Program-made: the position numbers and the translations under genes
From: a virus
DNA length: 40,088 nt
Reading direction: 5' to 3' (one strand)
Virus record (IMG/VR): IMGVR_UViG_3300042894_000659
Coordinates: 1 to 40,088 of that record
Notes under the pieces: generated by a model
What the model was told of the DNA's origin: nothing
What the model saw: only the letters and a program-made list of their open reading frames with translations
Databases searched by the model: none
Part shown: positions 1-40,088 of the stretch, one piece after another
Position numbering within the stretch: position 1 is the stretch's first letter
How the letters are laid out: each line of letters starts with the position of its first letter

Positions 1-127
1 TAATAGAGACCCGTTAACTACTAAGGGTGACCTCTATACCTTCTCTACAACCGATGATCGCCTAGCTGTCGGAGCCAATGGGGAAACTCTCGTAGCAGAT
101 AGTTCCACTTCAACAGGCTTGCGCTAT
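1..127. repeat. Direct repeat, copy 1 (tail-fibre 5' shared block)
   Basis: These 127 bases are identical to 39255-39381. The first difference is at base 128 (c) against 39382 (a). The block encodes the linker that follows the N-terminal base domain of the tail fibre. The contig therefore starts inside sequence it also carries near its other end. That fits a circular genome in which the fibre gene exists in two versions, or a tandem gene duplication. Confidence 0.97.
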
Positions 128-1057
128 CAAGCGACACAGGCGGCTGGCAAAAATGCACTTATTAACGGTGGCTTCGACATTTGGCAGCGTGGCACAAGTT
201 TTACTTCATCTCTTGTTTATGGGGCTGACCGCTGGTTTGAATACTTTGGAAGCGGTACTTTTACTTATGCAAGAACTACAAGCAACCTTCCTGATGGATT
301 TCAGTATGGTATGCAGATTACATCTAATTCTACAACTGCTTCTGCTGAACTTTATCAAACAATGGAAACTGCTAATTGCATAAGATTTGCTGGCAAAACT
401 ATTGTTGTTTCAGGTTGGGTTCGTTCAAGCAGCAACGTTACAGCCACAGTTTTAATGGGTTCTTCAACTGCTACAGATGAACCGCAAAGTGGAACTTTTA
501 GCAGTATTTCGGGTACTGGTACATCTTGGGCTACAACAGGAACTGCAACAAGATTTTCAGCAACTTTTGTAATTCCATCTACTGCAAAATCTTTACGCTT
601 TGGCTTACAAACTGGTTCATTGGCATCAGCAGCAACCTTTACTGTAACTGGATTACAGATTGAGGAAGGCAACGTTGCTACTGGCTTTATGCGTACTGGC
701 GGAACAATTCAAGGAGAATTAGCCGCTTGTCAAAGGTATTACTTCCGTTGGACTGCAACAGACCTTTATAGTCCTTTTTCTCAAGGAATTAGCACCACAA
801 CAACAAATGCGCAAATTTTTGTTCAATATCCTGTAACTATGAGAACAAAACCAACTGTTTTAGAGTTTAGTACCTTAGTGATTAGCGATATTGGTTCTTA
901 CAATCTTGCAATTAGCGCGATAACTTTGAGTAATGGTTCTTCAAATGTTGCTGAAATCGGTTGTACAAATGCTGCAACTGCAACTGCAAACAGAGCGGCT
1001 TTTATTCGGTCAAATAACTCAGCGTCAGGATACTTAGCGTTTGGAGCAGAACTATGA
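2..1057 (+). CDS. Tail fibre / receptor-binding protein, variant A (5' partial)
   Basis: The frame is open from the first bases of the window. A TTG at 119 could be read as a start, but the reading frame continues upstream and matches the interior of the gene at 39097, so it is not the real start. Residues read a KGDLYTFSTTDDRLAVG linker, then NALINGGFDIWQRGTSF and ADRWF, the usual opening of a jelly-roll, carbohydrate-binding-like module in phage fibres. Next comes GGTIQGELAACQRYYFRW and a C-terminus ending YLAFGAEL, typical of fibre tips. If the ends are joined at the 127-base repeat, 39097-39254 plus 1-1057 gives 1215 nt, an intact 404-residue protein in one frame. The likely role is binding the host surface. 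The central part is richer in A and T than neighbouring structural genes, which suggests module exchange. Confidence 0.85.
   Translation, partial: NRDPLTTKGDLYTFSTTDDRLAVGANGETLVADSSTSTGLRYQATQAAGKNALINGGFDIWQRGTSFTSSLVYGADRWFEYFGSGTFTYARTTSNLPDGFQYGMQITSNSTTASAELYQTMETANCIRFAGKTIVVSGWVRSSSNVTATVLMGSSTATDEPQSGTFSSISGTGTSWATTGTATRFSATFVIPSTAKSLRFGLQTGSLASAATFTVTGLQIEEGNVATGFMRTGGTIQGELAACQRYYFRWTATDLYSPFSQGISTTTTNAQIFVQYPVTMRTKPTVLEFSTLVISDIGSYNLAISAITLSNGSSNVAEIGCTNAATATANRAAFIRSNNSASGYLAFGAEL
696..768. repeat. Direct repeat (tail-fibre 3' shared block), copy 1
   Basis: These 73 bases match 40016-40088, the last bases of the window, with one mismatch (t709 against c40029). They encode GGTIQGELAACQRYYFRW and the following residues. 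Between the two shared blocks the fibre variants differ: 568 bases here (128-695) against 634 bases at the other end (39382-40015). Confidence 0.95.
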
Positions 1058-1197
1058 GCAAAAATAAAATAATTACAGATATGTACGGCATTGAACACAT
1101 TATCATTGACAGAGGCAACGGGGAATATACCTCAATGCCAAAGACAGAATACGACCGCCAACAAGCGGAACAATCCACACCGAACCTAGCTGATTAG
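1054..1197 (+). CDS. Small hypothetical protein (47 aa) after tail fibre
   Basis: The start codon overlaps the fibre stop (ATGA), a sign of translational coupling. The 47-residue product begins MSKNKIITDMYGIEHIIIDR and ends in a charged, Gln-rich stretch with TPNLAD. It has no membrane segment or recognised motif. Small proteins coupled behind fibres are often chaperones or tip accessories, but nothing in this sequence proves that. Confidence 0.6.
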   Translation: MSKNKIITDMYGIEHIIIDRGNGEYTSMPKTEYDRQQAEQSTPNLAD

Positions 1198-3933: not shown

Positions 3934-4139
3934 TGCAGGCACAAGACTACGCAACAGTAGCTGTTGCAGTATGCACAATCATCGGTGGCTTTGCTGCCTC
4001 AGTACGCTGGATGGTTAAGCATTATCTCAATGAACTTAAGCCCAACTCTGGCAGTTCACTCAAAGATTCCGTCATTAGACTGGAAGAAAAAGTAGAAATC
4101 CTTTATCAGATGATGTTACAGCGAGGGAAAAATGAATGA
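3933..4139 (+). CDS. Small membrane protein, holin-like or tail-associated (68 aa)
   Basis: The start overlaps the preceding stop (TAATG). There is one transmembrane segment at about residues 7-27 (YATVAVAVCTIIGGFAASV), then a basic turn and a C-terminal predicted coiled coil (LKDSVIRLEEKVEILYQMML). It sits directly before the peptidase gene, the usual place for a holin or a membrane anchor. One membrane span plus a coiled coil would fit a class III-like holin or a spanin-like helper. The exact role is unproven. Confidence 0.6.
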   Translation: MQAQDYATVAVAVCTIIGGFAASVRWMVKHYLNELKPNSGSSLKDSVIRLEEKVEILYQMMLQRGKNE

Positions 4140-4597
4140 AACCTGTTGCCAAGAAAGCCACGCCTGCCGCTATTGCTGTCCTTCGACAAGCCACAGCGCT
4201 GAAACCATTACGCAAGAAAGCCTCGGATGGACTGTTACCGAGCAAGGCACACATCAGTCAGAGTCCTAACTCAGATCACAATACTGGATATGCAGTAGAC
4301 CTAACCCACGATAAGCTGGGTGGCATTGATTGCTTCCAAGTATTTGAAGAACTCAAAGCAGACAAGCGCGTTAAGTATCTAATTTTCCAAGGCAAGATCT
4401 GGTCAGCAGAGCGTGCCTCAGAAGGGGACCGTGAATACACAGGTTCCAATAAACACAACAAACATCTTCACATCTCCATCAATGACGGATGTGGAGACGA
4501 CACTTCCCCTTGGTTCCCTTGGCTGGGAAAACCAAAGGCTGTCAACAAAGTAAAGGCTGCAATCAAGCCTCTACCTAAGAAGAAGGAGAACCAATGA
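4136..4597 (+). CDS. Endolysin, M15-type (VanY/D-Ala-D-Ala) peptidase
   Basis: The 153-residue product contains the zinc-ligand pattern of M15 peptidases: His48 and Asp55 in SDHNTGYAVDLTHD, and the HNKHLHISI motif with His110/His112. It would cut cross-links in host peptidoglycan at lysis. The N-terminal 30 residues and C-terminal tail are Lys/Ala/Pro rich, perhaps for wall or membrane contact. There is no signal peptide, so a holin is needed for release. It overlaps its neighbours by ATGA on both sides, between two small membrane proteins, forming a lysis cassette. Confidence 0.82.
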   Translation: MKPVAKKATPAAIAVLRQATALKPLRKKASDGLLPSKAHISQSPNSDHNTGYAVDLTHDKLGGIDCFQVFEELKADKRVKYLIFQGKIWSAERASEGDREYTGSNKHNKHLHISINDGCGDDTSPWFPWLGKPKAVNKVKAAIKPLPKKKENQ

Positions 4598-4846: not shown

Positions 4847-5197
4847 CTAAAATATGCCAGAGTTTGAATCACCTGATAGATGAGTCTTTAATCTATGACA
4901 GTTAGCGCAAAGAGTTTGTAGGTTAGATGGGTCATTGTTCCACCGGTCACCGTCTTTGTGGTCTACATCTAGCTGAGAGATGTGTACTGGTATGAATCCA
5001 CACTGTTGACATTCTGTGCCTTTATGTCTAGCGTATGGATACTGGTAGTTGATGATGTTGCGTTTGTAGACAGCCTTGCATCTGTACCTACTGGTAAGTG
5101 GATTGGTTTTATCTCGTAGCTTGATCTTAGTGGGGCCACAAACAGAGCACGTGGCAGTACGTTCTTGCTCGTTATAGTCAGTTAGTTTGTGGTGCAT
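4847..5197 (-). CDS. HNH endonuclease
   Basis: The 116-residue protein has zinc-binding CxxC pairs (CSVC near residue 18, CQQC near 63) and an HNH core (DVDHKDGDRWNNDPSNLQTL followed by CANCHRLKT). The DH, N and H residues are all present. It may be a homing-type nuclease or a packaging or takeover nuclease. It is leftward, opposite to both flanking operons, which is usual for a mobile HNH gene. Its start overlaps the end of the upstream zinc-ribbon gene by 20 bases. Confidence 0.9.
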   Translation of the reverse strand: MHHKLTDYNEQERTATCSVCGPTKIKLRDKTNPLTSRYRCKAVYKRNIINYQYPYARHKGTECQQCGFIPVHISQLDVDHKDGDRWNNDPSNLQTLCANCHRLKTHLSGDSNSGIF

Positions 5198-7699: not shown

Positions 7700-7975
7700 A
7701 TGCGGGAGCCAAGTCAATACGAAGCTCCTAGTTGTGCAACTATCGGTGGCGACTTCTGGTTCCCCGATAATGAATCTGGTATCCCTGGCGCATCTACAGT
7801 TGATGCTAACTTTGCAAAGAACATCTGCAAGAGATGTCCTCACCGTAGAGAGTGTGCTGAATGGGGTATTAAGAACGAGGCTCACGGTATCTGGGGCGGT
7901 CTGGCGATTAGAGATCGTCAACGCATCAGACGTGAGCGAGGAATCAAAATCTATCAGGAGGACGACGTTGCTTAA
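7700..7975 (+). CDS. whiB: WhiB-family transcription factor
   Basis: The four cluster-binding cysteines are Cys12, Cys43, Cys46 and Cys52, the last three in CKRCPHRREC. They are followed by the family GIWGG turn (63-67) and a basic C-terminus (RDRQRIRRERG). WhiB proteins bind a 4Fe-4S cluster and the host sigma factor region 4 to alter promoter choice. A phage copy could redirect host RNA polymerase or block host genes. It begins 3 bases after the preceding stop, and its end overlaps the ATPase start. It is the best marker for an actinobacterial host. Confidence 0.96.
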   Translation: MREPSQYEAPSCATIGGDFWFPDNESGIPGASTVDANFAKNICKRCPHRRECAEWGIKNEAHGIWGGLAIRDRQRIRRERGIKIYQEDDVA

Positions 7976-12774: not shown

Positions 12775-13416
12775 TTAGAAACCCAGCACATCTATTAGTT
12801 GCTTACCTATAGTCCGAGTATATACAGGTGGGATAGCTTCAACAAGTTCTCCCCAGATCATCCAATCAATTCCCATTGCTTCTCGCGCCTGCTCTATAGT
12901 CTTTGCGGTATGCCCCCCCCCCGGAATTTCATCACGCATAGATCCGTAGATACCTACTGGCTTTCCCTGCTTCTTGTGGTCACATACTGAACCTGTTAAT
13001 TGCAGGTTAGACTCAAAGAGTCTATGTCTGCGTACCTTTAGATCAAAAGATGAGCCACAAAATTGCACCGGGTTAATCAATGGAGCACCCGGTACGTTCT
13101 CAATCACGTAAGGTATACCACTAGCAATCAACGCCTCTCGTGTCTGAGGTATCAGATCTACTTTGTCCGTGCTCTTACCCTGAGCGTTGCGTAGATGCTG
13201 AGTGCGTGAGTGTGTCTGACAAGGTGGGCTAGCTGCAATCACATCAAAGGTACGCAAGTAATCTAAGTCTTGCAGTATCTCCAAGCAGTCTGTTTGTATA
13301 AACTCAAAGGGATAACGCTTCTGCTTCTTGATGTCAATACCAGTAACCTCAAAGCCAGCATCAGCGTATCCTTTGCTCGCTCCTCCAGCCTTGCAGTAAA
13401 GATCAAGTAGTCTCAT
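12775..13416 (-). CDS. DNA (cytosine-5) methyltransferase, phage-type
   Basis: The 213 residues have motif I (LDLYCKAGGASKGYADAGF), catalytic motif IV (ASPPCQTHS, Cys66), motif VI (VIENVPG, Glu106) and a final motif X-like stretch (PPVYTRTIGKQL). It is short because the target-recognition region is reduced, as in many phage enzymes. It methylates cytosine C5, probably to resist restriction. A run of ten G in coding sense (12913-12922) encodes Pro-Gly-Gly-Gly at residues 165-168. A one-base slip would shift the frame and remove motif X. It follows the transglycosylase gene by a TGATG overlap and ends the leftward operon. Confidence 0.92.
   Translation of the reverse strand: MRLLDLYCKAGGASKGYADAGFEVTGIDIKKQKRYPFEFIQTDCLEILQDLDYLRTFDVIAASPPCQTHSRTQHLRNAQGKSTDKVDLIPQTREALIASGIPYVIENVPGAPLINPVQFCGSSFDLKVRRHRLFESNLQLTGSVCDHKKQGKPVGIYGSMRDEIPGGGHTAKTIEQAREAMGIDWMIWGELVEAIPPVYTRTIGKQLIDVLGF
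12913..12922. repeat. Homopolymer C10/G10 tract inside methyltransferase gene
   Basis: Ten consecutive C on the plus strand are G10 on the coding strand. It is the longest G/C run noticed in the window. Runs of 8 or more G/C inside genes are classic slippage sites for phase variation. The frame is intact in this assembly. Confidence 0.9.

Positions 13417-35355: not shown

Positions 35356-35359
<4 letters not shown>
35018..35359 (+). CDS. Tail-fibre-associated beta protein (BppU/Ig-like, 113 aa)
   Basis: TTG 35018 is used because it overlaps the preceding stop. The product is a compact beta domain: [59 protein letters not shown] and [11 protein letters not shown]. This order is typical of the small N-terminal domain of siphophage and podophage baseplate/fibre proteins of the BppU type. 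It lies directly before the collagen-like fibre, to which it probably attaches. Confidence 0.7.
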
Positions 35360-36681
<1,322 letters not shown>

Positions 36682-38666: not shown

Positions 38667-39050
38667 ATGACCAGTTATTATTCATCAACTAGTATTGCAA
38701 CAACATTGCAATCTGCTATTTCTAGCAGTGGTGCAACATCTATGACCGTGGCTACTGGTACAGGTACTGCTCTTATGGGTGGCGTAACACTTGGTGCTGG
38801 CAATGTAGATGTCTTTACTGTTGCTATTGACGTTGACACAATCAACGAAGAGATAGTATTTATTACCAACCAGTCATCGGACACGATGACCATTGTGCGT
38901 GGTCAGGCTGGCACATCTGCGGTAACACATAGCGCAGGAGCAAGCGTCAAGCACGTGCTTTCATCCTATGACCTAACTAACTTTAGCAATGCTATTGAAA
39001 GCTCAGTACCTGCTCCTGGAACACCAACGATTGATGGCGGTACTCCGTGA
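38667..39050 (+). CDS. Tail protein with adaptor-like beta domain (127 aa)
   Basis: AAGGAAAACC precedes the ATG. Residues ~20-96 (TSMTVATGTG, INEEIVFITNQSSDTMTIVR, GQAGTSAVTHSAGASVKH) match the inserted beta domain of the 37755 product in motif order: TSITV, IDDELM, RGYQGT and H-Q. The C-terminus ends TIDGGTP, as does the collagen fibre at 36681. It lies just before the main tail fibre and may be a fibre attachment or neck piece. Confidence 0.7.
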   Translation: MTSYYSSTSIATTLQSAISSSGATSMTVATGTGTALMGGVTLGAGNVDVFTVAIDVDTINEEIVFITNQSSDTMTIVRGQAGTSAVTHSAGASVKHVLSSYDLTNFSNAIESSVPAPGTPTIDGGTP

Positions 39051-39096: not shown

Positions 39097-40088
39097 ATGC
39101 CTGTACAAACACAGATACTAACAAGACGTGGTACTGCTGCATCCTGGACTTCTACCAACCCTACGTTGGGTGCTGGTGAAATCGGGTATGAAACAGATAC
39201 CGGAAGATTTAAGATAGGTACAGGCGCTGCAGCTTGGGCCTCACTAGGATACTTTAATAGAGACCCGTTAACTACTAAGGGTGACCTCTATACCTTCTCT
39301 ACAACCGATGATCGCCTAGCTGTCGGAGCCAATGGGGAAACTCTCGTAGCAGATAGTTCCACTTCAACAGGCTTGCGCTATAACCCACAAAATGCCTTAG
39401 CCAATCCAGTCATTAACGGCGGTATGGATAACTGGCAACGCGGAACCTCAATCTCGGTTACTGCAAGCGCTGGTTATACATATACCGCAGACCGTTGGTG
39501 TTTAACTACTAACGCAAACCAAGCAATGACAATTTCACGCCAAACAACGGGTGATACAACAAATCTTCCAAACATACAATACGCCTTGCGTTTTCAGCGT
39601 AATTCAGGACAGACGGGTGTCGCGGCACTTTACAATTTTAGTTCTTTTGAGTCTGTTAATTCTATTCCTTTTGCAGGAAAAACAGTCACTATGTCTTTTT
39701 ACGCTAGAGCAGGTGCTAATTATTCGCAGACTTCAAATGGCTTAGGTTGTGGTGTTAATACGGGAACAGGAACAGACCAACAATATTTTAGTATGACAGG
39801 TGCAGCAAGTCCATTAAGTTCAACAGTAACTTTGACAACAACTTGGCAACGATTTGTAGTGACTGGAACAATCGGTGCAACTGCAACACAACTTGCGCCG
39901 TGGTTTACTTTTACACCAACAGGTACGGCTGGGGCTAATGATTACTACGAAGTGACAGGTGTGCAGATTGACCTAGGCACTTATACCGCTTCAACTGCAC
40001 CAAGTTTCCGCAGGTCTGGCGGAACAATCCAAGGAGAATTAGCCGCTTGTCAAAGGTATTACTTCCGTTGGACTGCAACAGACCTTTA
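39097..40088 (+). CDS. Tail fibre / receptor-binding protein, variant B (3' partial)
   Basis: AGAAGGAAATAAC precedes the ATG. Residues 1-50 form an Mtd-N-like fibre base (TRRGTAASWTSTNPTLGAGE, IGYETDTGRFKIG). The shared linker (KGDLYTFSTTDDRLAVGANG) follows, then ANPVINGGMDNWQRGTS, a lectin-like module related to but different from variant A, and the shared GGTIQGELAACQRYYFRW. The frame remains open to the last base. Variant B is 634 bases between shared blocks against 568 in variant A. The gene continues past the contig end, presumably at base 769 of a circular genome. Confidence 0.88.
   Translation, partial: MPVQTQILTRRGTAASWTSTNPTLGAGEIGYETDTGRFKIGTGAAAWASLGYFNRDPLTTKGDLYTFSTTDDRLAVGANGETLVADSSTSTGLRYNPQNALANPVINGGMDNWQRGTSISVTASAGYTYTADRWCLTTNANQAMTISRQTTGDTTNLPNIQYALRFQRNSGQTGVAALYNFSSFESVNSIPFAGKTVTMSFYARAGANYSQTSNGLGCGVNTGTGTDQQYFSMTGAASPLSSTVTLTTTWQRFVVTGTIGATATQLAPWFTFTPTGTAGANDYYEVTGVQIDLGTYTASTAPSFRRSGGTIQGELAACQRYYFRWTATDL
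39255..39381. repeat. Direct repeat, copy 2 (tail-fibre 5' shared block)
   Basis: These 127 bases are identical to 1-127. In variant B they are followed by the alternative lectin-like module. See the copy at 1-127. Confidence 0.97.
40016..40088. repeat. Direct repeat, copy 2 (tail-fibre 3' shared block), at window end
   Basis: These 73 bases match 696-768 with one mismatch at 40029/709. The last 59 bases are identical. The window stops inside the repeat. Confidence 0.95.

Follow-up and report, generated by a model that had tools for sequence, protein, structure and literature searches.

Why should the two ends of one phage contig carry two different versions of the same part of a tail-fibre gene? 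The stretch of DNA analysed here, the complete IMG/VR record IMGVR_UViG_3300042894_000659 (40,088 nucleotides, hereafter the window), raises this question, since both its first and its last bases lie within such a gene. From the comparisons described below we consider it very probable that the two ends represent two versions of a single fibre gene in the sampled population, that the contig was opened at its host-recognition locus and that the versions are exchanged at short linkers.

Results

Repeats at the contig ends and the joined fibre gene

A repeat search over the whole record showed that positions 1–127 and 39255–39381 are exactly identical and that this match stops precisely where the modules diverge (C at 128 versus A at 39382). 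The second pair, 696–768 and 40016–40088, contains a single mismatch (709 T, 40029 C) followed by 59 exact bases up to the contig end; the coordinates of both repeats and the one mismatch reported in the initial annotation are thus correct. Besides these two pairs no further direct repeats of at least 25 nt were found in the 40,088 bases, and a search of both strands of the record revealed neither other nor inverted copies of the repeats or the modules. The 127-nt exact repeat is not a product of chance. As had also been proposed, joining 39097–39254 to 1–1057 yields a single open frame of 1215 nt (404 aa), an intact fibre gene whose first ~50 residues match Mtd_N (PF18454, E 1.6e-11). The features of the locus are compiled in Table 1.

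Table 1. Features of the fibre locus and its surroundings in the window (alleles and modules as predicted).
Position	Strand	Feature	Basis
1..127	+	second copy of the V-linker region, forming the k-mer overlap with which the contig starts	exact repeat
128..695	+	allele A carbohydrate-binding module	AlphaFold2 model, CBM4-2 match
696..1057	+	allele A C-linker and C-terminal domain, ending GYLAFGAEL stop	ORF, repeat
1054..1197	+	47-aa small ORF of the fibre cassette, S-linker in its last codons	ORF
1165..1184	+	S-linker GCGGAACAATCCACACCGAA, 20 nt, DNA-conserved joint of fibre cassette and backbone	exact copies in many phage backbones
1213..2013	+	tyrosine recombinase (PF00589), directly downstream of fibre cassette	Pfam
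7700..7975		WhiB-like transcription factor gene	PF02467
37755..38657	+	SU10-adaptor-like protein, a conserved anchor on the upstream side of the locus	PF24175, E 4.2e-08
38667..39050	+	UP, 127-aa putative tail protein directly upstream of fibre gene	PHROG 38058, tail fibre, E 8.6e-17; order kept in relatives
39097..39254	+	fibre gene 5' part shared by alleles A and B, with start codon and N-terminal domain of Mtd_N type	ORF; Mtd_N match (PF18454, E 1.6e-11)
39255..39381	+	V-linker region, first copy (...KGDLYTFSTTDDRLAVGANGETLVADSSTSTGLRY), final 127 bases before allele divergence	exact repeat of 1–127; linker kept in relatives
39382..40015	+	allele B carbohydrate-binding module	AlphaFold2 model, Foldseek, relatives
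40016..40088	+	allele B C-linker start (GGTIQGELAACQRYYFRWTATDL), cut by contig end	repeat of 696–768

Several other genes of the record deserve mention. Just upstream of the fibre locus, positions 35356–36681 encode a 441-aa collagen-like protein (Gly-x-y repeats, PF01391), whose repeats align with those of relatives in many registers. A DNA methyltransferase-like ORF is located on the minus strand in a leftward-transcribed region (12775–13416), and another minus-strand ORF (4847–5197) displays, by eye, an HNH-endonuclease-like Cys/His pattern.

Both versions encode a predicted carbohydrate-binding module

The segments between the repeats had been described as versions of one domain, and this reading holds: the modules alone are 34% identical at the amino acid level and both are CBM4-like. 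BLASTP of the A form against the B form returns a higher value of 56%, because the flanks are identical. AlphaFold2 models, calculated from the window and relative sequences only, reached a mean pLDDT of 88.5 for module A and 85.4 for module B, and both are predicted to adopt a CBM4/16/22-like beta-sandwich. Residues 8–181 of the module A model match CBM4-2 (Z 16.1, rmsd 2.6, 156 residues aligned), and the phage tailspikes CBA120 TSP4 and K2-2 likewise score high against this module. For module B the best Foldseek matches are CBM4-2, with E 2.4e-07 to the same CBM group as for A, and relatives with up to 76% amino acid identity occur in other phages. Since both models match family 4 carbohydrate-binding modules best, the former designation "lectin-like domain" is apt insofar as it denotes a beta-sandwich fold of sugar-binding type. 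The modules may bind glycans of the host surface.

Gene order, circularity and the position of the contig ends

When viral contigs were scanned with the tyrosine recombinase and each of the two modules, 237 loci were obtained. By DNA, no near relatives were found in annotated phage records. Viral contigs were also searched exactly for the C-linker extension and the V region of the window; no match was obtained in this search, from which the record of the window itself may have been hidden. In the relatives the order glycosyltransferase, adaptor, UP, fibre, small ORF, tyrosine recombinase and g636 is unbroken. Furthermore, the window is collinear, as a circular permutation, with two relatives, G001 (39,112 bp) and G002 (39,370 bp). 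The unbroken order across the window ends together with the two permutations supports the earlier suggestion of a circular contig, and the window would accordingly represent one nearly complete genome of ~39.25 kb, either circular or circularly permuted. In G001 itself (loci L241–L242) the ends overlap by 306 bp with 97.7% identity, at the place that corresponds to the capsid gene of the window; this record, too, is probably a circular genome, which strain variation kept from being closed.

The length of the exact match to another locus before divergence was determined for each locus terminus. These lengths peak at 127, a value found for seven distinct contigs (L016, L042, L104, L141, L158, L262 and the window), compared with at most three contigs at 121–126 and none at 128–129. 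Moreover, L016 and L015 share the same 127-nt overlap around the same V-linker. Such a peak is what a de Bruijn assembler run with k = 127 leaves behind, so that the initial interpretation of the 127-base match as a k-mer and graph branch is supported. In the relatives, too, contig ends cluster at the fibre locus: at most 1.3 kb upstream of the recombinase there are 29 of 65 left ends, as against 9 of 44 right ends at most 1.3 kb downstream of it. Assemblers have been reported to stop, and contigs to break, at such host-recognition islands (Bellas et al. 2020, PMC7468147), and short reads meet the same assembly difficulty at such regions (PMC6487183).

Both fibre versions would thereby start with a common Mtd-like N-terminus and the V-linker, continue with the CBM4-like module A or B and meet again, at least briefly, at the C-linker. 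An assembler with k = 127 would have started at the last k-mer shared with allele A, passed round the genome and run out along allele B. At the B end the contig stops at 40088, 59 nt past the last mismatch, short of the 127 shared bases (to 40156) which a merge on the 3' side needs at k = 127; allele B may well for this reason continue into a C-terminal half different from that of A.

Module exchange at short linkers in relatives

The comparison with related phages and the search for both modules, which had been recommended as a check, unveiled single-gene and tandem layouts among the 237 loci as well as module exchange at the linkers. The loci L004 and L008, which originate from different metagenomes, are 99.98% identical over 6.3 kb from the C-linker on, and their modules before the C-linker are unlike; L009 and L010 share ~5 kb at 100% with L004 and L008 only from near the S-linker. 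On the other side, L046 and L053 agree at 99.3% over the 2.4 kb that lead up to the V-linker and are dissimilar afterwards. Alternative versions of a receptor-binding gene on near-identical backbones are thus seen in the window (A and B) as well as in both groups of relatives. The proposed swapping of modules between conserved flanks is directly visible in these relatives, which are 98–100% identical up to a linker and unlike beyond it; for the window itself it holds with the restriction that the 3' flank conserved between A and B amounts to only 73 nt in the record.

Over all loci, 84 of 236 unique breakpoints lie at most 60 nt from one of the linkers V, C and S, whereas 500 null draws gave 10 on average and 20 at most. 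This count was de-duplicated for loci and pairs and is to be read as a strong indication rather than as a p-value, since contigs and breakpoint events are not independent. The fibre cassettes of these phages thus meet at three short linkers, V, C and S, which are conserved as DNA.

The S-linker is located in a small ORF for which no Pfam or PHROG match was obtained. Conservation at the DNA level is evident from its codons: Thr is encoded by ACA in 54/54 and Pro by CCG in 54/54 cases (recombinase-selected loci with a recognisable motif; 26 of 80 loci are cut or have no recognisable linker of that form), and CCG accounts for 9% of the Pro codons in the adjacent gene. The exact 20-mer was found in 67 viral stretches. 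The recombinase follows in 40 of them, and in most others the next genes are M15-like or CHAP-like endolysins, further fibre genes, glycosyltransferase or g636-like genes, as named from their translations. Residues before the motif AEQSTPN track the cassette and residues after it track the backbone; 19 upstream and 19 downstream clusters occur in 40 combinations, including nine complete four-combination sets. A short DNA-conserved sequence at a module junction and a free combination of its flanks are consequently both found at the S-linker. In three loci (L021:5811-5970, L025:3299-3494 and L130:2626-2807) two S-linkers lie 142–178 nt apart around one extra small ORF, as if small cassettes had been inserted at the S-linker. 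An inverted repeat following the S-linker (1182–1207, GAACCTAGC...GCTAGGATC), which resembles a recombinase core site, was dropped as a candidate, being kept in neither L012 nor L021.

With respect to these breakpoints, co-infecting phages would exchange receptor-binding modules via homologous recombination at V, at C and, after the small ORF, at S. Such an exchange would change the glycan recognised and keep the virion anchor. Homologous recombination is the likely mechanism at the linkers; the phage encodes exonuclease-like and Holliday-junction-resolvase-like genes.

Alleles, tandem genes and other explanations

The two versions could also belong to two tandem fibre genes of one genome, gene 1 being N-V-B-C and gene 2 (another start)-V-A-C, the gap between 40088 and 1 being lost owing to a V repeat longer than k; in the record itself the two genes are not contiguous. 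Tandem fibre genes are indeed known from the relatives L007, L008, L034, L040, L055 and L060; in L008 a B-like gene precedes an A-like gene next to the recombinase, which is the order of the window, and a repeat of at least 127 nt in tandem genes would produce an identical contig start. Nevertheless, the tandem genes of the relatives carry different N-terminal types, and none of the tandem loci read contained two Mtd_N-type genes with identical linkers. Within contigs, tandem pairs share at most 12 nt exactly at V (15 pairs) and at most 26 nt at C (17 pairs), against 127 and 59 in the window, a comparison weakened by the bias of short-read assembly against contigs with long within-genome repeats; pairs sharing 27–126 nt were not seen, though such pairs would have assembled. 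As the true tandem pairs share far less linker sequence and two loci, L021 and L033, possess one fibre gene only, in the layout of the joined gene, alleles in a mixed population appear much likelier than two genes in one genome, in line with the preference of the initial annotation, and we regard the tandem arrangement as unlikely. A chimeric contig, in which B from another co-occurring phage was fused to the backbone via a shared V-linker k-mer, is very improbable. B-type modules are present in unrelated phages and the V-linker is widely shared, but the shared 127 nt by far exceed ~50 nt, the longest exact match of the window with any other phage found; a donor of B would therefore need nearly the same gene, which leads back to two alleles. 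Programmed variation within one genome has next to no probability. The Mtd_N-type N-terminus recalls the tropism determinant of Bordetella phage, which is varied by a diversity-generating retroelement, yet an RVT_1 search detected no reverse transcriptase in the record, neither strand contains a template or inverted copy of either module, and A and B are of unequal length and diverge along the entire module rather than at scattered positions. An Mtd-type retroelement was accordingly rejected, no template repeat resembling the variable region being present in the record, as was an invertible segment or shufflon, all copies in the both-strand search lying on the plus strand.

A further alternative concerns the mechanism and is compatible with two alleles: the adjacent tyrosine recombinase, rather than general homologous recombination, may catalyse cassette exchange at the S-linker and thus form a receptor-cassette platform. 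Consistent with this, the recombinase starts 28 nt past the S-linker in the window and the linker is duplicated around the extra small ORF in L021, L025 and L130. In addition, a search for close relatives of the recombinase in one genome each of ~85,000 bacterial and archaeal species confirmed none, and hence there is no sign of prophage integration and no host attachment site was found; the record contains no tRNA genes as attachment sites. On the other hand, 27 of the 67 records with the exact S-linker have no recombinase within 1.5 kb downstream (a few are cut by the contig end), and breakpoints are also found at V and C, which lie at a distance from the recombinase. Moreover, 13 of the records without a neighbouring recombinase, two of them 39.1–39.3 kb long, have no PF00589 match at all, so that the recombinase is not needed for the presence of the linker and homologous recombination is the simpler mechanism. 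We consider exchange catalysed by the recombinase improbable. Throughout the phage group the enzyme is fixed beside the fibre cassette.

Discussion

Two alleles of a single fibre gene are the reading we retain, and A and B would then coexist in the source sample. WhiB is a marker of actinobacterial phages, and a WhiB-like gene is present in the window. Phages E7 and F5 of Planktophila share with the window the terminase (46% amino acid identity), portal, capsid, adaptor, UP and g636 as well as ORF 4136–4597 (72% identical). The WhiB gene and this distant kinship suggest that the host is a freshwater actinobacterium, probably from the order 'Ca. Nanopelagicales'. E7 and F5 (OX376640/OX376641) have genomes of ~39 kb, infect freshwater 'Ca. 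Nanopelagicales' and possess a variable fibre island (PMC10202952). The window resembles them in size and in its variable fibre locus, but they are distant, and no match to its fibre family or its tyrosine recombinase was found in E7 and F5.

The system is of a known kind, a host-recognition island with modular fibre exchange, and its most interesting part, the linkers, is seen here in unusual detail. Metaviromic and metagenomic islands combine near-identical backbones with alternative CBM, lectin, C1q or tail-fibre receptor-binding genes (Mizuno et al. 2014, PMC3909814; Bellas et al. 2020, PMC7468147), which is the same pattern of backbone and alleles as in the window. Whereas those studies show coverage gaps or whole-gene variants, the swap points were mapped here to short linkers inside or next to the fibre gene. 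In the phage-mosaicism model short conserved boundary sequences serve as joints at gene or domain boundaries (PMC3233612). Our observations agree with this model in that short DNA-conserved sequences coincide with module junctions; they differ in that the joint is found across many environmental backbones and includes a 20-nt joint inside a small ORF.

In a broader reading, which we offer tentatively and regard as rather doubtful, V, C and S would serve recombination as functional joints whose DNA sequence is maintained throughout a whole community of differing freshwater phages. Receptor modules and, via S, whole fibre cassettes would then move freely between backbones as a shared pool, and the adjacent tyrosine recombinase, where present, may act at S. 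A study from 1998 reportedly, to go by its title, describes adhesin segments exchanged between conserved motifs. The likeness to that case is one of analogy, and no kinship of the fibres is claimed; as far as the title indicates, the present linkers go further in also joining different backbones and downstream genes.

An odd contig end thus lets one see directly how the host-binding proteins of lake phages are varied, and environmental phage contigs classified as linear and incomplete may in fact be complete genomes that were interrupted at the fibre locus. The linkers furthermore bear on the old question whether phage mosaics arise via short conserved joints or by random illegitimate recombination, and exact linker sequences of 20–50 nt are now available for testing it.
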